Shown one piece after another: positions 3,714-14,632 of a DNA stretch of 14,643 nucleotides. Numbering within the stretch: position 1 is the stretch's first letter; every line of letters begins with the position of its first letter. Below the pieces are notes generated by a model that was not told the DNA's origin, did not search any database, and saw only the letters and a list, made by a program, of their open reading frames with translations. Both the position numbers and the translations under genes were made by a program. The stretch is from positions 973-15,615 of the forward strand of contig JAGTQJ010000018.1 in the NCBI GenBank assembly GCA_018396515.1, in the 5' to 3' direction. This DNA is from Candidatus Bathyarchaeota archaeon (GTDB lineage: Archaea; Thermoproteota; Bathyarchaeia; TCS64).

Positions 3714-3810
3714 GCGGCCGTAGCTCAGCACGGACAGAGCATGGGTCTTCGGATAGGGGGTCCTAGAAGAAAACCCAGGGTCGCGGGTTCAAATCCTGCC
3801 GGCCGCGCCA
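3714..3810 (+). tRNA. tRNA-Arg (anticodon TCG) with intron
   Basis: The cloverleaf folds fully. Acceptor GCGGCCG (3714-3720) pairs with CGGCCGC (3800-3806); D stem GCTC/GAGC; anticodon stem TGGGT (3742-3746) with ACCCA (3773-3777); T arm GCGGG-TTCAAAT-CCTGC. Discriminator G (3807) and an encoded CCA (3808-3810) follow. After removing 19 bases the loop is CT-TCG-G-A, so the anticodon is TCG (3749-3751), which reads CGA and possibly other CGN arginine codons. The D loop holds GG as expected. An open frame antisense to this tRNA is spurious. Confidence 0.95.
3753..3771 (+). other. tRNA-Arg intron at canonical 37/38 position
   Basis: The precursor folds into a complete bulge-helix-bulge. The anticodon stem, then the central 4-bp helix CTTC (3747-3750) with GAAG (3766-3769), flanked by a 3-base bulge GGA (3751-3753) and a 3-base bulge AAA (3770-3772), then TAGG/CCTA (3754-3757 / 3762-3765) closed by a GGGT loop. 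Cutting after the second base of each bulge, as the archaeal splicing endonuclease does, removes exactly 19 bases between positions 37 and 38. Confidence 0.93.
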
Positions 3811-6553: not shown

Positions 6554-7297
6554 TCACCTGAAGAGGTCGTCCTCTTGTTGTCTATTCATGTCTTTGGCCC
6601 TCCCATCTCCCTTGGGATATTCATAACCTCTTATTATCACGGCTGGGATCCCGCTCAGCTTCCCCTTGGCCAGCTCTGCAGCCGCTGCGAGCTCATCAGC
6701 GACGGCTATGTTTGTGACCGTGAGCTCGTATCCGAAGGGGTCTTTCTCTCCTCTGTAATCCTTCAGTGGTTTCATTCCCGCCACCCCTATCGCGAAGTCG
6801 ACCTGTCCAAGCCTCCAGGGCCTCCCCCAGGTGTCGGTGATTATGACAGCGATGTCCTTGCCCGTAAGCTCCATAATCCTCCTTCGGATCCTCCTAGCCG
6901 ACTCGTCCGGGTCCTCTGGTAGGAGTGATGCTTCCCCTCCCCCTACGTTGGATAGGTCCACTCCCGCGTTGGCGCATACAAACCCATGCCTTGTCTCCAT
7001 GATCAGCACATGCCCCCTCATCTTCACGATTCTATGGGTCTCCCTCAATATGACCTCAACATGCCTCGGATCCTTTCCAGAACTCCTAGCCACCTCCTCA
7101 GCGAAGCTGGAGGGCCTGACCTCGTCTAGGTTTATAAGCCTCCCCTCAGCCTTCGAGACGATCTTCTGGGTCACCACCACCACATCCCCATCCTCGATCC
7201 CTACGCCCATCCTCTCAGCAGCCCTAACGATGATCTCTCCTAGGTCGTCTCCAGCTTTGATTATGGGAATCCCCTCAAGACCGAATATGGTGATCAT
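6554..7297 (-). CDS. cofE: Coenzyme F420-0:L-glutamate ligase
   Basis: A 247-residue CofE, the usual archaeal size. It adds gamma-linked glutamate to F420-0 using GTP. Conserved blocks: DGDVVVVTQKIVSKAEGR (37-54), RETHRIV, HGFVCANAGVDLSNV, LLPEDPDESARRIR, the metal/GTP region VIITDTWGRPWRLGQVDFAI and GEKDPFGYELTVTNIAVAD, then AAAAELAKGKLSGIPAVII. All domains are complete. The ATG at 7297 has AAGGT immediately before it. The promoter and first five codons lie inside copy A of the duplicated element. Shows that the host makes F420, which fits with Mch. Confidence 0.96.
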   Translation of the reverse strand: MITIFGLEGIPIIKAGDDLGEIIVRAAERMGVGIEDGDVVVVTQKIVSKAEGRLINLDEVRPSSFAEEVARSSGKDPRHVEVILRETHRIVKMRGHVLIMETRHGFVCANAGVDLSNVGGGEASLLPEDPDESARRIRRRIMELTGKDIAVIITDTWGRPWRLGQVDFAIGVAGMKPLKDYRGEKDPFGYELTVTNIAVADELAAAAELAKGKLSGIPAVIIRGYEYPKGDGRAKDMNRQQEDDLFR

Positions 7298-7484
7298 ACC
7301 TTGAAGTATAAAGGACCCTAGAAAGTATATCTTTTAATTTCCCGTCATGCTCTCCCCCAGGTAGGGGGTCTACCTCTAATGGAATCTTCCTCGACCAATA
7401 GGATGGAGACCATCATTAACTAAAGGAGTGGATGGGGGATTTATGGTCACAGATCCATTCTTAGGCGTTAAAATAGTTGTCAGC
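7284..7484. repeat. Duplicated ~200 bp element, copy A
   Basis: Matches 13600-13804 in the same orientation along its whole length; by eye about four in five bases agree. It runs from the first codons of cofE through its promoter and on to about 7484. Two hairpins: CCCCC (7354-7358) with GGGGG (7364-7368) around AGGTA; and 7367-7382 with 7395-7411, a long imperfect stem with a 12-base loop. Both fall at the same places in copy B. The right end contains a short ATG frame (7443, 27 codons) also present in B, but every amino acid difference there is non-synonymous, so a conserved peptide is unlikely. Confidence 0.85.
7325..7340 (-). promoter_or_regulatory. Probable TATA region of cofE
   Basis: Minus-strand AAATTAAAAGATATAC lies about 28-43 bases before the ATG, implying a leader of roughly 8-15 bases. 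The same box is kept in copy B (13636-13652), even though no cofE follows there. Confidence 0.45.
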
Positions 7485-7511
7485 ACAACCCTGCTGTGTC
7501 AACCAGCCCCT

Positions 7512-7534
7512 GCCGTGGGCATGTAGCCCATGGC
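7512..7534. repeat. Strong 9-bp hairpin
   Basis: GCCGTGGGC (7512-7520) pairs with GCCCATGGC (7526-7534) around ATGTA, with one G-T pair. It lies just right of copy A and covers the first possible ATG of the small ORF at 7530. No matching hairpin is visible next to copy B. Confidence 0.5.
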
Positions 7535-7745
7535 CCGCTTAAGGATGTTCATGGCTCATACAACCAGAAGGAAAAAAGATGAGGATGGAGAAATACTCAA
7601 AAATCCTCTCAAAGATCTGACTCTTAAAGATCAATCAAAAGTACCTATGAGCCTATTATATGCTAAACACAAGGACGGAGGCGACAGAATAAAAATCTGC
7701 CGAGAATGTTACATGATGCTTACGCAAAAATCTTTTGGTGTCTGA
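7530..7745 (+). CDS. Hypothetical small protein, 71 residues
   Basis: I do not recognise this protein. It opens with MARLRMFMAHTTRRKKDEDG, highly basic, and ends with YAKHKDGGDRIKICRECY then MMLTQKSFGV; the CRECY pair is a CxxC-like half-knuckle that could bind metal if paired between subunits. Charge pattern and codon use look coding, but more A+T-rich than cofE. The first ATG sits in the arm of the hairpin at 7512-7534; ATGs at 7545 and 7551 are alternatives, and AAGGATG before 7551 could act as a weak ribosome site. No clear promoter. Confidence 0.4.
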   Translation: MARLRMFMAHTTRRKKDEDGEILKNPLKDLTLKDQSKVPMSLLYAKHKDGGDRIKICRECYMMLTQKSFGV

Positions 7746-7767
7746 TTCTGGAAGTTCCTGTCGCCGA

Positions 7768-7914
7768 ATGAGTGTTTTCCATTTTCCAGCTGATTATGGC
7801 TTAGGTTTTTCTGAGTTTGCTGATGAAGGGTGGACGCTTGAATTTGCGACCGAGAAAAAGAAGCATAGAAGATTAAGGTCACGGGTAAGGTCAAAAGTTT
7901 CTGTAGCATTATAA
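7768..7914 (+). CDS. Doubtful small ORF, 48 residues
   Basis: Begins MSVFHFPADYGLGFSEFADE and ends with a basic stretch (KKKHRRLRSRVRSK). It overlaps nothing and follows the 7530 ORF in the +1 frame, so the two might be parts of one gene broken by a frameshift. No ribosome site is evident and no family is recognised. Confidence 0.2.
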   Translation: MSVFHFPADYGLGFSEFADEGWTLEFATEKKKHRRLRSRVRSKVSVAL

Positions 7915-8345
7915 TTACCTTCTTTATTTCCATTTCTCATCGCGAGAAAAATATTCTGCTGGTGTGAATTTATCATTCTTAATTTATAAAAGATATATAG
8001 AAAAAAGGAGCAAAAACTACAAATCTTGTTCTGTAAACTGGTCATTATGAACGAAACAAGAAAAGGGGAGTTTGCAGAGACATCGCCACATTTAAATAAT
8101 ATAGAAATATTCTTTGAAACTCTACCTTAAGGTCCCACATCAGAAGTATCTCCGCATGACAACCTTAAGACCCTTTAGAAAGTATAAATAGTTTTTTCCC
8201 AAGACTATCTGATTCTAAAGTAGAGAGTCATCTTCAACTGATGTCGTTTATCCATCACCGTTAAATATTTGGTTGCAGTTGAACTTATGCAAAATGTTAA
8301 GAAACGTGATGTCGCACGTTCGAGGCATTTCCTCTAAAGGGCGGA
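7915..8345. other. A+T-rich intergenic region
   Basis: No gene or RNA recognised. It contains several TATA-like runs (around 7980-7998, 8091-8103 and 8182-8191) and stop codons in all frames. Confidence 0.5.
8182..8191 (+). promoter_or_regulatory. TATA box, probably for the (+) nucleotidyltransferase
   Basis: GTATAAATAG is the best TATA match upstream of the gene at 8346. It would give a leader of about 130 bases. A second candidate, GTTAAATATTT (8260-8270), would give a shorter leader of about 55 bases. Confidence 0.4.
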
Positions 8346-9404
8346 GTGGAGAGATTGCGGGGATACCGAGATAGGGACTTCGTGCAAACAACAGATGACT
8401 ACTTCTTCTGTGTCCTCGGCAATGTTCATCCTAGAGATCGCGTTATTGCCTATTTGAAGTATATTCCCGCCCCAGCTGGCAAATGGGGGAAGAAAAACAG
8501 GAGGTTCGAACGAATTTTTCGCCATTATACCATGGCAGATCTCATCGGAACTCTCAAATTTTTAGAGAGCCATCCAGAATACCTTTTCGACTCGCCTGTT
8601 TTGGGCATCAGAATGTCCGCCGTGCCTGCAGATAGGATTTCTGTGCACATTAGGCCGGAGGAGAGGATGGCGCTGCTCCTCACCATGAAGAGGCCGGATG
8701 TCCTTCAGAAGAAAGCTGCCGACTTAGTAAATCTCATTTCTGGCAGAAGCGGGGTCTCAACCGAATACTTCGGCGTAACGGGATCCTTACTCTTAGATAT
8801 TCATCAGGACTTCTCTGACATTGACCTTATCGTGTATGGAATGAAAAACAGTCAAGCTGTAAAAGAGGCGCTCCTCCAAATGTATAAAGAAGAGGGATCT
8901 TCAATACGACGGTTCAACGTCGAAGAAGCAAAGAAATGGTGCCTAGACAAGACCAAAAAATTTCCTATAACATATGAAGAGGCTGTTACAATATTTAAAA
9001 GGAAATGGGGACGAGGAATATTCGATGGAACAATGTTCTCAATACATCCCGTGAAACTCGAAGACGAAGTATCTGAAGAGTATGGAGACCGCACCTTTAG
9101 ACCTGAGGGAATCGTAACGGCTGAAGCGATCGTATCTGACACATCTGAGTCAGACCTTCTACCCGCAGTGTATAAGGTTGAAGATGTCAAAATCTTAGAT
9201 GGCCGCTGTGTTGAAGACATCTTCGAAGTCGTCTCATACGAGGGACTCTATGGCGGCATAGCTGAGGAAGGCGAGAAGATACGGGCTCATGGAAAACTGG
9301 AAAAAGTCACAGACAAAAGGGCGAAAAGAGAATATCACCGTATCCTTATAGGCTCAAAGGAGGCGAGGGGGAGGGACTACATCAAGCCTCTTTGCTCATC
9401 ATAA
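8346..9404 (+). CDS. Polymerase-beta-type nucleotidyltransferase with C-terminal OB-like region (paralog 1)
   Basis: 352 residues. The N-terminal domain (1-100) carries VHPRDRVIAYLKYIP and HPEYLFDSPV. The central nucleotidyltransferase core has GVTGSLLLDIHQDFSDIDLI (143-162): GS at 146-147 and the metal-binding Asp158 and Asp160 of the hG[GS]...DhDh motif. The C terminus (about 255-340) holds EYGDRTFRPEG and GEKIRAHGKLEKV, strand-rich and OB-like. Predicted to transfer a nucleotide to an unknown acceptor (RNA, protein or small molecule). The GTG start (GTG GAG AGA) aligns with the start of the paralog at 10398; no ATG is available. Convergent with that paralog and overlapping it by 23 bp. Catalytic residues intact, so probably active. 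Confidence 0.8.
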   Translation: MERLRGYRDRDFVQTTDDYFFCVLGNVHPRDRVIAYLKYIPAPAGKWGKKNRRFERIFRHYTMADLIGTLKFLESHPEYLFDSPVLGIRMSAVPADRISVHIRPEERMALLLTMKRPDVLQKKAADLVNLISGRSGVSTEYFGVTGSLLLDIHQDFSDIDLIVYGMKNSQAVKEALLQMYKEEGSSIRRFNVEEAKKWCLDKTKKFPITYEEAVTIFKRKWGRGIFDGTMFSIHPVKLEDEVSEEYGDRTFRPEGIVTAEAIVSDTSESDLLPAVYKVEDVKILDGRCVEDIFEVVSYEGLYGGIAEEGEKIRAHGKLEKVTDKRAKREYHRILIGSKEARGRDYIKPLCSS

Positions 9405-10398
9405 AGTCTGAGGGTTTCGCTCCCAAGATTAGCCGGAAGTATTCAGCTCCGTTTTTATAGATAACTTTTTCCACTTTTCCTTGGGCAATTATCTTCTCGC
9501 CTTTCTTTGCCTGCTCGCAGAACTTTCCCCTGAAAGAGGCTATTTCTGTTATTGACGTTAGATTTGTTCCTTCAAGAACCTCAACTTGGGAAATCTCATA
9601 TCTACATGGCGTGAAGATAGAGTCCAAATCATCTTCAACTCTCGCTCTGATCTTTGCATAGCCGCATGGAGTATAGATCCGATCCCCATACTTCTCGTCC
9701 ACCTCGTCCCAGTCCAGCAGGAACCTCACGAAGAAGTCCCTTCCCCTAAACCTCCCTTGAGAAACCTTTCTGCGCTCAATTCGGATAAAGTCCTCAAGAG
9801 GCATCTGGGGAGCTTCGAAACGGAAACCATAAAGCCGTTTAAGATCACTTGAACTATATGAGGTGACGGATTTTCCTTCTTGCATCAACTGCGTCAAAGA
9901 CTCGTATACAATTAAACAGTTTTTTCGTCCATAAACAATAACGTCTATGTCTGAGTTCTCTGTGTGAAGGCCTACAAGGATCGAGCCGGACAATCCTAAT
10001 TTCCCAACATTCGATGAATCATGTAGGATCTTAAGGAATTCGAGTGCCTGTATCTCCACTTGATCTAGATGAGGCTTTTTTACGAGCTCCAAGACCTTTG
10101 CGGCGGGTTCATAAATCTTAGAGATGGCATTATGTGGAACCCCCTCTAGGTATTCTCCGAAAACCGGATCGTAAAAAAGATATTGCGGATACTTCTCCCT
10201 AATTATCCTGTCTCTTTCGCTCAGCGAGTAAACCTTAACATAGGTTTTGTCACCCCTCCTTCGGTCTCCGGAAGGTTCTTCCAAATAGCGAAGATAAGCC
10301 ACAATCCTGTCTGGGGGATGAACAAAACCCTTAACATCAAAGATTAATCCATCCAAGGTTTCGATGAAGTCCCCTTCACGAGCCCTTAAACGTTTCAA
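9382..10398 (-). CDS. Polymerase-beta-type nucleotidyltransferase with C-terminal OB-like region (paralog 2)
   Basis: 338 residues with the same architecture as the gene at 8346: VHPPDRIVAYLRYLEEPSG at 27-45, KYPQYLFYDPVFG, the core LGLSGSILVGLHTENSDIDV (134-153) with GS at 138-139 and Asp150/Asp152, then EKYGDRIYTPCGYAKI and a C-terminal FRGKFCEQAKKGEKIIAQGK. Catalytic residues intact. TTG start at 10398, with GTGATCC (10402-10408), which matches the extended anti-Shine-Dalgarno complement, 3 bases upstream. Only 9 bases separate it from the CitG-like gene, so they are almost surely co-transcribed. The acceptor is unknown. Confidence 0.82.
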   Translation of the reverse strand: MKRLRAREGDFIETLDGLIFDVKGFVHPPDRIVAYLRYLEEPSGDRRRGDKTYVKVYSLSERDRIIREKYPQYLFYDPVFGEYLEGVPHNAISKIYEPAAKVLELVKKPHLDQVEIQALEFLKILHDSSNVGKLGLSGSILVGLHTENSDIDVIVYGRKNCLIVYESLTQLMQEGKSVTSYSSSDLKRLYGFRFEAPQMPLEDFIRIERRKVSQGRFRGRDFFVRFLLDWDEVDEKYGDRIYTPCGYAKIRARVEDDLDSIFTPCRYEISQVEVLEGTNLTSITEIASFRGKFCEQAKKGEKIIAQGKVEKVIYKNGAEYFRLILGAKPSDFMMSKEA

Positions 10399-10407
10399 TT
10401 TGGATCA

Positions 10408-11412
10408 CTAAAATTTTAGTCCGCATAGTAATGCGATCATCAATGCAGTTGCGGTTAAGTCAGCAGTGGTTCCGGGGCTATAATCCTCTCCGAGGCCTTG
10501 CAGTTTACGGTCAAACTCCCACAGAGATGCATTTCCCCTTTCCGTTGTTAATCCGCCTAGGTTCAGGATATGCTCAGCCATCTCTGATACCCACATGGTC
10601 TCTCTTCTGCCTATCTCAACTGCTTTCTTCACGTCGCTCTCCTTCCTAAGGCCCACCTTTCTTGCAATGAAGGTGTCAGGTACCTTCGATAATATTCGCA
10701 GGAACGTGTGAACAGTCGCCACATTTATGTCGCCTGTCCTGTTGAAGGTCTCAACCAATTCCTTGTACCCTATCTTAAACGAGATCTCCATGCCATTTGT
10801 TAACTCTCTCGCAACCGTGTCATAAGGAGAAGCCACCTTCATCACGTCGAAGAGCGATATCCCCGCTTCCAAAATCTTTCTCTCAGCTTGCTTATCATAG
10901 AGATCAGGAGCTTCCCCCCTTTCAAACCTTCCCAACTCATAGGGAGAACTGACCAACGCTATTGCCTTGTAGACTGCAACAGCATCTTGCGGCGTACTAA
11001 ACCACATAACTTCACTCACATTATCCCGCAGATCTCCTAGAGAGATTTCGCCATTTTCAACATATGTTTTTGAGGCGGATGCCGCCAAAGGGACGAACAT
11101 GAGACAGATACCCAGATGAGTATTACCCCCTTTATGAGACTCGGATATATCTGAGATAGCCTTCCTAACAAGTCCACCTACCCCAATCCTCGAAATGTCC
11201 AACCGGCCTTTAGCAACTTCCAAGCCTTTCCGAGCTGAAGCTTCTACCGAGGAACCTAGTGCCACTGATCCTGCTAGAAAATGCTCAAAACGGGTATCAG
11301 AATGATCAATCGTTCTATGGACATTTCCTGGTTTAGGCCAACCGCTTACCTCTAAAGCTGCTGCGAGTTCTGCGGAGAACCTTATATGTTCCAATAACTT
11401 CTTAGTTTTCAC
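10408..11412 (-). CDS. CitG-like protein (triphosphoribosyl-dephospho-CoA synthase family, COG1767)
   Basis: 334 residues. Family signatures: KPGNVHR (27-33), FEHFLAGS (42-49), KGGNTHLGICLMFVPLA (94-110) and the C-terminal SPGTTADLTATAL (312-324). Bacterial CitG/MdcB join dephospho-CoA to ATP-derived ribose to make the prosthetic group of citrate or malonate lyases, but no lyase genes are seen here. The position between mch and a nucleotidyltransferase suggests a different nucleotide-cofactor step, perhaps tied to methanopterin or C1 metabolism; this is inference. GTG start; a TATA-like CAATATACTG (about 11429-11438) sits too close for a standard leader, so a TTG at 11394 may be used. Stop TAG. 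The 107 bases to mch hold no gene. Confidence 0.82.
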   Translation of the reverse strand: MKTKKLLEHIRFSAELAAALEVSGWPKPGNVHRTIDHSDTRFEHFLAGSVALGSSVEASARKGLEVAKGRLDISRIGVGGLVRKAISDISESHKGGNTHLGICLMFVPLAASASKTYVENGEISLGDLRDNVSEVMWFSTPQDAVAVYKAIALVSSPYELGRFERGEAPDLYDKQAERKILEAGISLFDVMKVASPYDTVARELTNGMEISFKIGYKELVETFNRTGDINVATVHTFLRILSKVPDTFIARKVGLRKESDVKKAVEIGRRETMWVSEMAEHILNLGGLTTERGNASLWEFDRKLQGLGEDYSPGTTADLTATALMIALLCGLKF

Positions 11413-11519
11413 TGGAATCCCCCATTCAGTATATTGAGATATGGGATGGGTTTGAAGAGATATTGTAGAAAACTTCTCGACAAGAGCAAACGACGCTTTA
11501 GCATCCTCATAGAATTCAC

Positions 11520-12545
11520 CTACTTGATGTTTGATATACCGACAAGAACTTTCAAAAGCTCTTTGTTTACCCGGCCCGCTGTGAAGCTGTTTCCTGTCTT
11601 TATATTGGAAACCGTTATTACTGCTGGCGCGAAGGCACTCAAATCAACGTCATAGAATCCCTGAGCAGCCTCTCGAAATATCTCCGCAAAGGATCTACCA
11701 TCTCGCGGGGGAACCTTAGCAACGAATTCTTCAAGTTGCTCATCGTCTAAATAATCTGTTTTATAGTAGGTGACTCCACCGTATCTTATAGCGTCGTTTG
11801 TTCTGCCCATTGCCTCAGCCAGATCAGGATGAACAGGCGCTATTGGAGCATATCCTGAGCCGAAGAATATTTTCGTGAAATCGAATCCTAAGAGAGCAAG
11901 TTTGTGGATTCCAACTTCAACCACACGGCTAGCAATCTGTACAGACCCAACTATGCTGGAGGTCGGAGCCACAAACGCATAGAGTTTTGCAGGTTCAATC
12001 CCGCACTCCTCCGCAATCATCCTCAATGTTTTGTCCGGCGGGAGTTCCGAAGTTTCCAAAGAGATAATTGCCTCATCACATACTTCAATGTGTCCTATTT
12101 TTTCAAATATTTCTCTGGGGGTATACGTGATGAAGCCCATCCTACGATAGTTCTCTCTTTTCGCATCCACAGGCCGGGGAATTTCTCTATCCAAAGCTAA
12201 GGCTCTGGCCGGCCCGGAACCAATTGCGAAGTATTCTCCGTCCCGAACCTCCCAGTCGCCCAGCTGCCCACCTAATGTGGCCAAGATGGGATGGCTCGAA
12301 GAAACATGCACGCAGGGAAGGGCAAACTCACCGTAGTCTATGGTTTGTATATAAACGTCGGCGAGGCCCCCCGCTGTAATCCGTGCAACATATATGCCGG
12401 CATCAACGCTTCCCCTAACATTTATGCCGCAGTCGATAACAGTTGCGCCGCAGGGTGACCTGTAAGCCTTGATTCCCAACTCATCATCTCTGGTAAGCAT
12501 CTCCTGAACTATGAGCATAGCTTTCTCATTCATTGATAAGCTCAT
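11520..12545 (-). CDS. mch: Methenyltetrahydromethanopterin cyclohydrolase
   Basis: 341 residues, slightly longer than usual (about 315-325). Catalyses the reversible hydrolysis of methenyl-H4MPT to N5-formyl-H4MPT. Conserved: GATVIDCGINVRGS (33-46), HPILATLGGQLGDW, YFAIGSGPARALA (105-117), APTSSIVGSVQIASRVVEVG (193-212), GYAPIAPVHPD, AMGRTNDAIRYGG and APAVITVSNIKTG. Arg207 and Glu210 in RVVE correspond to the Arg/Glu pair reported as catalytic in the Archaeoglobus enzyme. The ATG at 12545 has AGGTG (12553-12557) 7 bases upstream, inside the end of the transporter gene. Part of the reverse operon. Stop TAG. Confidence 0.97.
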   Translation of the reverse strand: MSLSMNEKAMLIVQEMLTRDDELGIKAYRSPCGATVIDCGINVRGSVDAGIYVARITAGGLADVYIQTIDYGEFALPCVHVSSSHPILATLGGQLGDWEVRDGEYFAIGSGPARALALDREIPRPVDAKRENYRRMGFITYTPREIFEKIGHIEVCDEAIISLETSELPPDKTLRMIAEECGIEPAKLYAFVAPTSSIVGSVQIASRVVEVGIHKLALLGFDFTKIFFGSGYAPIAPVHPDLAEAMGRTNDAIRYGGVTYYKTDYLDDEQLEEFVAKVPPRDGRSFAEIFREAAQGFYDVDLSAFAPAVITVSNIKTGNSFTAGRVNKELLKVLVGISNIK

Positions 12546-12548
12546 CTG

Positions 12549-13367
12549 TCAGCACCTTTTCTCCTGCGTTCTAAACAAACCAGCAGTTTTCAAAACCTTC
12601 ACAAGCGGAGCGGCCACTATGCTGGCGATCAATGCCTGTATTATTCTAATAACGGGATAAATGAAAGGAGAGACTGTGAACGAGTAACGAACGAAATCCA
12701 ACAGGCTCAGCCCGAGGAGTTTCGCTGTAGGCTCCAGAGCGGGGCCGAAAAGCCCCCCATAAACAATTGGAAGCGCGAAAATGAGGGAGCCAAGGGCGCT
12801 GTCAGCTTGGTTTCCTATGAATGCTCCAAAGAAAAATATGGGCAACGCTTTTCCGAGAAACTTAACACTTGCCTCCTCGACCCTCGGCCCATGAGCTTTT
12901 AGGAGGCGAGCTACTACAGGTATCAGAAAGAGTGCAACGATCTTGTCAAATGTAGCAGCCAGACCCACATACCAATAGGTATTGAGCGGTATGACAGGGG
13001 GTGTGAGCCAGAAAGCCGCAATTATGAGGGCGAAGAGAACGAATGCATGTTTCCATTTGTTTCTGAAGATCAACCCCAAGGTCAAGGCGTTGAGAGCCGG
13101 GTTCAGTATGAAAATTAGATCAAAAATAGAGGCGCCGCGATAGAAAAAAGCAACAATTGTCCCTATAAACGCCGCTAGGGCTCCCAAATAAGGTCCCAGA
13201 ATGATTCCTATAACCGAGGCTGTGGCGGCTCCGAGTTGTATGCTCATCCCGGGAACGGCCACTACAGGGATTGCTGGCAATAGGGAAGCGATCACATACA
13301 CAGCTGCAAAAATACCTATAAAACTCACAGTTAACGAGGTAGATTTAAACTCGGGTTGAGCCAACAT
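12549..13367 (-). CDS. ECF transporter S component (substrate-binding membrane subunit)
   Basis: 272 residues, almost all hydrophobic, with about six to eight membrane segments (roughly 13-35, 44-77, 81-101, 106-121, 131-153, 172-204, 232-258). The N-terminal AAVYVIASLLPAIPV and SIQLGAATASVIGIILGPYLG followed by GALAAFIGTI are characteristic of S components of energy-coupling-factor vitamin transporters. The A and T subunits are not in the window, as in systems with a shared module encoded elsewhere. The substrate is not shown by the sequence; the 3 bp gap to mch suggests a pterin-related or other C1-cofactor precursor. ATG start with CAGGTG 4 bases upstream. Confidence 0.85.
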   Translation of the reverse strand: MLAQPEFKSTSLTVSFIGIFAAVYVIASLLPAIPVVAVPGMSIQLGAATASVIGIILGPYLGALAAFIGTIVAFFYRGASIFDLIFILNPALNALTLGLIFRNKWKHAFVLFALIIAAFWLTPPVIPLNTYWYVGLAATFDKIVALFLIPVVARLLKAHGPRVEEASVKFLGKALPIFFFGAFIGNQADSALGSLIFALPIVYGGLFGPALEPTAKLLGLSLLDFVRYSFTVSPFIYPVIRIIQALIASIVAAPLVKVLKTAGLFRTQEKRC

Positions 13368-13406
13368 TCAACACCTGCCTTGGTCTATAATCCGAGCAGA
13401 AAGTAC

Positions 13407-13414
13407 ATGATATA
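13407..13414 (-). promoter_or_regulatory. Candidate TATA box of the ECF-mch operon
   Basis: Minus-strand CTATATCA lies about 43 bases before the ATG at 13367, giving a short leader with the Shine-Dalgarno site. TTTATTAACG (about 13503-13512) is a more distant alternative with a leader of over 100 bases. Confidence 0.35.
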
Positions 13415-13599
13415 GGAACGATGACCCGGAACGAGAACGACTTCTTCTCACTGCTAACTGGATTAAATGTTCCATTTTGAAATCAAATGTAGTTTTTTAC
13501 ACGACGTTAATAAATCTTTCTTCCGAGATGAAGAGGGTCTTATTTAGTTAGGTTTTTGGGATGCCCTCTCCCAGGCTTCTTAGAGATTGGTGGCAACCA

Positions 13600-13804
13600 A
13601 ATATGGTGATCATCTCTTGAAGTATAACGACCCTAGATAGTATATCTTTTAATTTGCCGTTATGCTCTCCCACAGAGAGGGAGAGGAGGCCTACATCTAA
13701 TGGGATCCTTCTCAACCAATAGATGTAGACCAGTGTTAACTAAGAGAATGGATGAAGATTTATGGTCACAGAGTCATTATTAGGCATTAAAATAGGCGTC
13801 AACA
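13600..13804. repeat. Duplicated ~200 bp element, copy B
   Basis: Direct-orientation partner of 7284-7484. Hairpin 1 is CTCTCCC (13665-13671) with GGGAGAG (13679-13685), seven perfect pairs. Hairpin 2 is 13688-13703 with 13716-13731, 14 of 16 positions paired, including a perfect run CTACATCTA/TAGATGTAG. On the minus strand the left end spells ATGATCACCATATTTGG, the start of cofE, but no cofE follows. It lies between the ECF operon and the DUF169 gene; 13368-13599 to its left holds only the operon promoter. Confidence 0.85.
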
Positions 13805-13840
13805 TGACTCGTATTCTCCTTTAAACATCTTTTAATCGGT

Positions 13841-14632
13841 TCACCATTTCTGGTATCTCTGTGGTCTTGGGGGCGACTGTCTGACATCTAGGCCCAGCAT
13901 CTCAAACTTTGCACATGCTGGCTTTAGGGGATATTCCTCCTTTAGCTCCTGTGCTAATGGTAGGCCTAAGTTATGTTCCTGAAGCCATTTGGCCCCTTCT
14001 ATGAAGTCCGGGAGCCTATTAAGGGGGAGTGAGAATATCACTTCATCGTCCTAGGCCATGGCCAGTCTACGATCCCCTCTGCATGGTATCGCGACATAGC
14101 ATTCACGGCTCTTAATCGGCGGGACCACAGCATAAACACATGCAGCGTGGCCTGAGAGCTGGGCGTTTATATCCTTCCCATCTATCCAGTTCTTTATTAT
14201 AAGAAGCTGGGTCAACTGTAAGCCGGTTACATGCATCAATATGACATCGGGAAGGAAGCTGCAGCTTTCGACTGGGGCTGATAAGATGCCAATGTGCTGT
14301 CCATAGTCGAGGTGGGGCATGCTCTGACACCATTCAGCAGCTGCCTTCAAGTCCCTCACGCTGTCTGGATAGCGGTAGTGCCCCTCCAAGAAATATCTGA
14401 TCCTAGGAACCAAACCCAGACCCACAGCTGGCTCGAAGCACCACATGTCCTCCTTAAACATGGCTATGGTTAGGCCGCTTCTCTCGGACCTCGCGAAGCT
14501 TTGGCAGAGGGAGAATTTGTGACCCCAATCTCGGGTCGGGATGATGGCCCCCTCCGGGACCTCCTCTCTGCCTTTTAAAATCTTAACTGCTACGGGGTGA
14601 GCCCGCATGCGGAGCCAGCTCTCCATGTGCAT
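13841..14632 (-). pseudogene. DUF169 family protein interrupted by an in-frame amber codon
   Basis: Two stretches in the same frame form one DUF169 (COG2043) protein of about 263 residues. The first (14632-14051) has HPVAVKILKGREEVP (12-26), LCQSFARSERSGLTIAM, WCFEPAVGLGLVP, AAAEWCQSMPHL, LSAPVESCSFLPDVILMHV and YVAIPCRGDRRLAMA. A TAG (14053-14051) follows where the family normally has Gln (AMTQDDE becomes AMA-stop-DDE). The second (14050-13841) continues with DDEVIFSLPLNRLPDFIEG to the expected C terminus. CAG to TAG is a single change. Other genes here (rnp2, rnp3, mch, CitG-like, TIGR04076) end with TAG, so general recoding is unlikely. The N terminus is about ten residues short and sits right after another in-frame TAG (14638-14636). 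Function unknown. Confidence 0.8.

Follow-up and report, generated by a model that had tools for sequence, protein, structure and literature searches.

The locus considered here raises the question of why a sequence of about 200 bp, first described as an element with conserved, covarying hairpins, occurs twice in a short stretch of an archaeal genome. In the window, by which we mean the whole stretch of 14,643 nucleotides that was analysed from a Candidatus Bathyarchaeota archaeon, the two copies are direct repeats: E1 at 7280–7493 and E2 at 13596–13800, both read on the minus strand, with 6,102 bp in between (about 6.3 kb from copy to copy). The duplication placed by the original prediction at 7284–7484 and 13600–13804 is real. 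E1 finds its partner in the rest of the window with 161 bits, compared to 32.5 bits for the best of 200 shuffles, and BLAST aligns the copies with 81.8% identity over 203 columns (E 4e-41). In a four-way alignment of E1, E2 and the single copies of two genomes of the same genus (G002 and G001), 173 of 212 columns are identical between E1 and E2 (81.6%), and their longest exact common word has 17 bases. As argued below, the repeat is very probably a duplicated cofE promoter region left behind by the insertion of an acquired 6.1 kb block, and not a new structured RNA.

E1 adjoins cofE (6554–7297, minus strand), which encodes coenzyme F420-0:L-glutamate ligase (TIGR01916, 319.7 bits against a cut-off of 180.65). 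Read on the minus strand, the repeat consists of about 150 bp of upstream sequence followed by a TATA-like block, ATTAAAAGATATAC, and, at its end, the ATG and five more codons of cofE. The block lies at 7325–7338 in E1 and at 13640–13653 in E2; it is identical in all four sequences and underlies the 17-base word common to E1 and E2. Its position some 30 bases before the ATG suggests that it is a TATA box and that E carries the cofE promoter. E1 contains the first six codons of the intact gene, and E2 retains these codons as a stump (13596–13613, minus strand) that matches E1 at 17 of 18 bases. From the block to codon 6 the two copies agree in 60 of 68 columns and further upstream in 113 of 144, a modest indication that E may be better preserved towards its promoter. 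A scan for sigma-70 promoters and terminators returned counts at or below those of shuffled sequence, although its patterns are bacterial and have little bearing on an archaeon. The original prediction had offered a shared upstream control region as one of its options, and this came close: E is the upstream region of cofE with a putative promoter, but it is shared by way of duplication.

The arrangement in the two relatives indicates how E came to be present twice. In both G001 and G002 a single E lies between cofE and a DUF169 (COG2043) gene, reduced to a remnant in G002, whereas E1 adjoins cofE and E2 adjoins DUF169 in the window, so that each copy retains one ancestral flank. Beyond E1 the sequence runs on into cofE as it does in both relatives, and beyond E2 it runs on into DUF169, with matches at 13833–13928 to G002 and at 13835–14625 to G001. 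The DUF169 gene of G001 is intact (309 aa) and stands head-to-tail before cofE with 246 bp between them; the G002 remnant matches the 3′ and 5′ ends of that gene, the middle being absent. With the block absent and E single in G001 and G002, the site is uninterrupted there, and the block is either an insertion in the lineage of the window or an old one that was lost in G002. The former is simpler. Loss from G002 by recombination between two E copies is not supported, since it should have left an E1-like sequence near cofE and an E2-like sequence at the far end, and the far end in G002 is E1-like.

Some features of the flanking DUF169 gene stand apart from this argument. In the window it extends over 13841–14632 on the minus strand, its start falling outside the given ORF, and it carries an in-frame TAG at 14051–14053 where G001 has CAG; past this TAG the frame stays open as far as 13843, the stop of the original frame being at 13841–13843. 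A reading of the TAG as pyrrolysine was considered. None of the three genomes has a PylS above cut-off (weak matches fall below it, and the window's own genome is 65% complete), so that a nonsense mutation is the likelier explanation. On contig C9 of G002 (14910–15541 of locus L011), two deletions relative to G001 lie beside E; one removed the middle of DUF169 and the other tldD together with most of tldE.

The original prediction proposed a search for more copies in the same and related genomes, and this yielded none beyond the two in the window's own genome and one each in G001 and G002. Elsewhere in its own genome E has only matches of 15–18 bases at E values of about 0.3 to 1. Three of 101 relatives gave a match, as did four of 256 genomes of the class (the two sets overlap), with no convincing copy outside the genus; the fourth match, 34 bases in a further genome of the class (G175), was taken as chance. 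Additional genus-level sequences were sought through named genomes, and the 80 loci obtained included none of this genus, the best reaching 60–64% protein identity. Pairwise identities of 81.6, 84.5 and 85.0% place E1, E2 and the copy of G002 in a near-star, which favours no particular age of the copies or direction of change; the G001 copy, as outgroup, is about 64–66% identical. The identity of E1 to E2 is near that of non-coding DNA in general between the window and G002 (84.8%, 1376 of 1623). Either the duplication may date from around the time the species parted, or one of the copies may have been imported from a sister lineage when already diverged.

The inserted block (7494–13595) carries genes of a chromosomal type. 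From the E2 side, the minus strand bears a gene like that of an ECF transporter S component (12549–13367; PF07155), a second MCH (methenyl-H4MPT cyclohydrolase; 11520–12545), from a subfamily sharing about 45% identity with the MCH on contig C90 of this genome, a CitG-like gene (10408–11412; PF01874, under the NCBIfam cut-offs) and a nucleotidyltransferase-like gene A (9382–10398; PF01909). Gene B (8346–9404) follows on the opposite strand; by itself it matches neither Pfam nor NCBIfam, and it was recognized in the search with gene A, at 34% identity. The 3′ ends of the convergent genes A and B also contain a 54-nt inverted repeat (9265–9318 and 9453–9506, 78% complementary), as expected from the homology of the two genes. 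Among the five longer ORFs of the block (each above 80 aa), which were scanned against Pfam and NCBIfam, there was no integrase or other mobility gene.

Several observations make a lateral origin of the block likely, namely the relatives of the inserted MCH, a similar gene order in another family of the class, and the distant homologues of the ECF gene and gene A in G001 and G002. When a 6,111-bp stretch was compared as DNA with seven genomes, namely its own, the two relatives G001 and G002, and four from the family, it matched its own genome and, otherwise, a 65-bp piece in G002, and the block is absent from G001 and G002 apart from that piece. At the protein level G001 has an MCH with 46% identity, G002 has none that we found, and both have homologues of the ECF gene at 30–32% and of the nucleotidyltransferase at 29–30%, the distant homologues of ECF and A spanning 28–32% overall. 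The genome G051, of the same class and another family, has the ECF, CitG, A and B genes in a matching order (protein identities of 46, 65, 61 and 59%) with no MCH between them, and pieces of the block occur in other arrangements in two further genomes (G036 and G046). Among the best 120 of 2,833 matches, the nearest to the inserted MCH is a metagenome protein at 84%; the others stay at or below 67% (one at 67%, the rest at no more than 66%), and one of these is labelled Desulfurococcaceae; as far as searched, all listed relatives lie outside the window's genus. Of the 256 genomes of the class, its own genome alone reaches E 1e-85.

At its cofE-side end the block looks like a patch of relics. 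Immediately after E1, the minus strand at 7493–7557 holds the remains of a TnpB-type gene's 3′ end (Cas12f1-like TNB zinc-ribbon family), with 86% identity to G002 contig C5 at 58215–58280, where a 62-aa ORF, itself a TnpB-type fragment, matches PF07282 with 30.2 bits, above the cut-off. Next to it, at 7552–7620 on the plus strand, lies the 3′ end of a foreign gene like that for an uncharacterised 229-aa protein of another genome (G032), with a DNA match of 87% over 7552–7598; the 229-aa protein has no Pfam match. Beyond the relics, the sequence is AT-rich (38% GC) for about 0.7 kb and lacks an ORF of at least 84 aa. The statement that no transposase is nearby overlooked the relic of the TnpB-type gene.

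Based on these observations, we propose that E was originally the intergenic region between cofE and DUF169, bearing the putative cofE promoter, and that it is now present twice because the laterally acquired 6.1 kb block integrated at or beside it, leaving one copy on either side. E1 would still serve cofE, while E2 would have stayed with DUF169 together with the six-codon cofE stump. The insertion itself is well supported, resting as it does on the single-copy relatives, the flanks of the two copies, the absence of the block from those relatives and the gene order of G051 (minus MCH), and it has been seen in one MAG (65% complete) on a contig of 15.9 kb. The most likely route would be integration anchored by homology in E or cofE, either by a single crossover with a circle or, in the case of a linear piece, by one homologous join and one illegitimate one; granted the insertion, we give this anchored route about an even chance. 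The cofE gene itself possibly experienced homologous exchange. Identity between the window and G002 is 92–97% in most coding bins and about 85% in the body of cofE (6554–7198). After the first 99 bases of cofE, a split chosen after seeing the data, the window agrees with G001 only at 59 sites, with G002 only at 34 (p 0.012), and G002 agrees with G001 only at 32 (p 0.006); the contrast is weaker over the whole gene (59 vs 44, p 0.17; 59 vs 36, p 0.02). Over the first 99 bases the agreement is with G002 (10 vs 0), and elsewhere the window is closer to G002 (93 and 90% vs 82–88%). Such an exchange may also lie in the history of G002.

The hairpins, which had first drawn attention to the locus, are weaker evidence of selection than they seemed. 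Both sequences described for hairpin 1 are present, CCCCC/GGGGG in E1 (7354–7368; arms 7354–7358 and 7364–7368) and CTCTCCC/GGGAGAG in E2 (13665–13685; arms 13665–13671 and 13679–13685), but they do not form a single stem common to the copies: the register differs, and four of the seven pairs in E2 use bases of a 6-nt insertion that is absent from E1 and G002. Hairpin 2, described as a long stem in both copies, is strong in E2 (13688–13731), where none of 300 shuffles folds as low on either strand (−16.7 and −21.5 kcal/mol when folded alone), whereas that of E1 (7367–7411; −12.1 and −13.2 kcal/mol) behaves like shuffled sequence, 46 and 43 of 300 shuffles folding as well on the two strands. 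The G002 counterpart (−15.5 and −10.5 kcal/mol) is equalled by 0 and 4 of 300 shuffles, and most of the stem is broken in G001. In E2 and the G002 copy, two of the four, hairpin 2 does have the look of a genuine inverted repeat, which might serve as an operator or as a terminator for the DUF169 transcript. Neither hairpin is the cause of the duplication; both are features local to the intergenic region.

That the repeat is a structured noncoding RNA, or a DNA hairpin under selection, which was duplicated and then kept at both places by selection is, in our view, very improbable. Apart from hairpin 2 of E2 and G002, this reading can draw on a 141-nt fold of E2 on the minus strand with a z-score of −3.82 and on a single change on both sides of a pair, from C-G to U-A at columns 147 and 185. 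This is the sole such change among 24 pairs when the four aligned sequences (alignment A2) are scored on the E2 structure, and the covariation that had been claimed is not above either control, since 216 of 500 shuffles reach one pair and sliding the partners by one column gives three; with four sequences the power is low, and the test fails to support a structure rather than excluding one. In register 81.7% of the cells pair, compared to 26 to 48% when slid, a difference that is expected because the structure was taken from one of the aligned rows. E1 as a whole (113 and 181 of 200 shuffles as low) and the G001 copy fold no better than shuffles, the copies lack a common hairpin 1, and at its gathering thresholds Rfam identifies in the window only a tRNA at 3714–3807 and nothing at E1 or E2. 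The noncoding RNA put forward in the original prediction accordingly finds no support here, and its own fallback, that a lack of further copies and of significant covariation would reduce the element to a simple segmental duplication, essentially describes what was found.

The remaining explanations take the two copies as the work of a mobile element or of the assembly. Two insertions of a MITE-like, non-autonomous mobile element, also among the options first suggested, would account for diverged hairpins in two copies 6.3 kb apart, but the probability of this is close to nil: the two copies mark the precise ends of a single insertion, each with one ancestral flank, the relatives are single-copy, and a wider family of copies is missing from the own genome and, outside the genus, from the 256 genomes of the class that were searched. 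If the block were an integrative element targeting cofE at its 5′ end, with E1 and E2 as attachment-site copies and the element restoring the cofE promoter and start, this would explain why direct repeats stand at both ends, why the repeat starts within the 5′ part of a gene and why that gene is intact at one end. We consider it improbable nevertheless, as the longer ORFs of the block include no integrase or mobility gene, the mobile trace is limited to the 65-bp TnpB relic, and the gene content is chromosomal in type with an order matched in G051; moreover, at about 205 bp the repeats would be long attachment sites. An assembly chimera of the cofE regions of two strains is suggested by the single MAG contig from an incomplete genome and by E copies that differ like alleles of different species, but it is highly improbable, given that a longest common word of 17 bases offers little to mis-join on and that the divergence of the two flanks and the two E copies from G002 is that of ordinary sequence of the genus.

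With the duplication read as the result of an insertion, the orientation of E2 invites a further idea, which we think unlikely. E2, with its TATA-like block intact and an inverted repeat stronger than that of E1, would act as a second cofE promoter reading into the acquired ECF-MCH-CitG genes, of which the ECF gene is the first one downstream, such that expression of the second MCH would go together with F420 synthesis, cofE itself being sustained by E1. If E2 is active, this would be a simple route for foreign metabolic genes to gain host regulation. The locus also offers an example, from an archaeon not in culture and with the look of a dated event, in which a putative native promoter was copied ahead of a set of genes probably acquired laterally, and it illustrates how an insertion scar can yield a reading of covarying hairpins from two diverged copies.

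The kind of event proposed here, an insertion that duplicates the upstream region of its target, is already known. In Campbell-type integration, a single crossover of circular DNA leaves direct repeats of the common sequence flanking the inserted DNA. The block in the window likewise lies between direct repeats, although no circle, plasmid or replication gene was identified. For integrative elements that use the 5′ end of a gene, the repeat begins in the first codons and the gene remains intact. The repeat in the window similarly starts in the first codons of an intact cofE, but there is no integrase among the longer ORFs of the block and the repeat is too long for a typical attachment site. 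In bacteria, variable segments flanked by direct repeats have been found in one genome and are absent in relatives (PMC2884548), and homology-facilitated illegitimate recombination, in which foreign DNA enters with a homologous anchor, appears among the titles cited there. The window resembles these systems in having a segment that is absent in relatives and bears direct repeats at its ends, and it differs from them in belonging to an archaeon, in having repeats of about 205 bp that derive from the gene's own upstream region, and in enclosing a 6.1 kb operon-bearing block.
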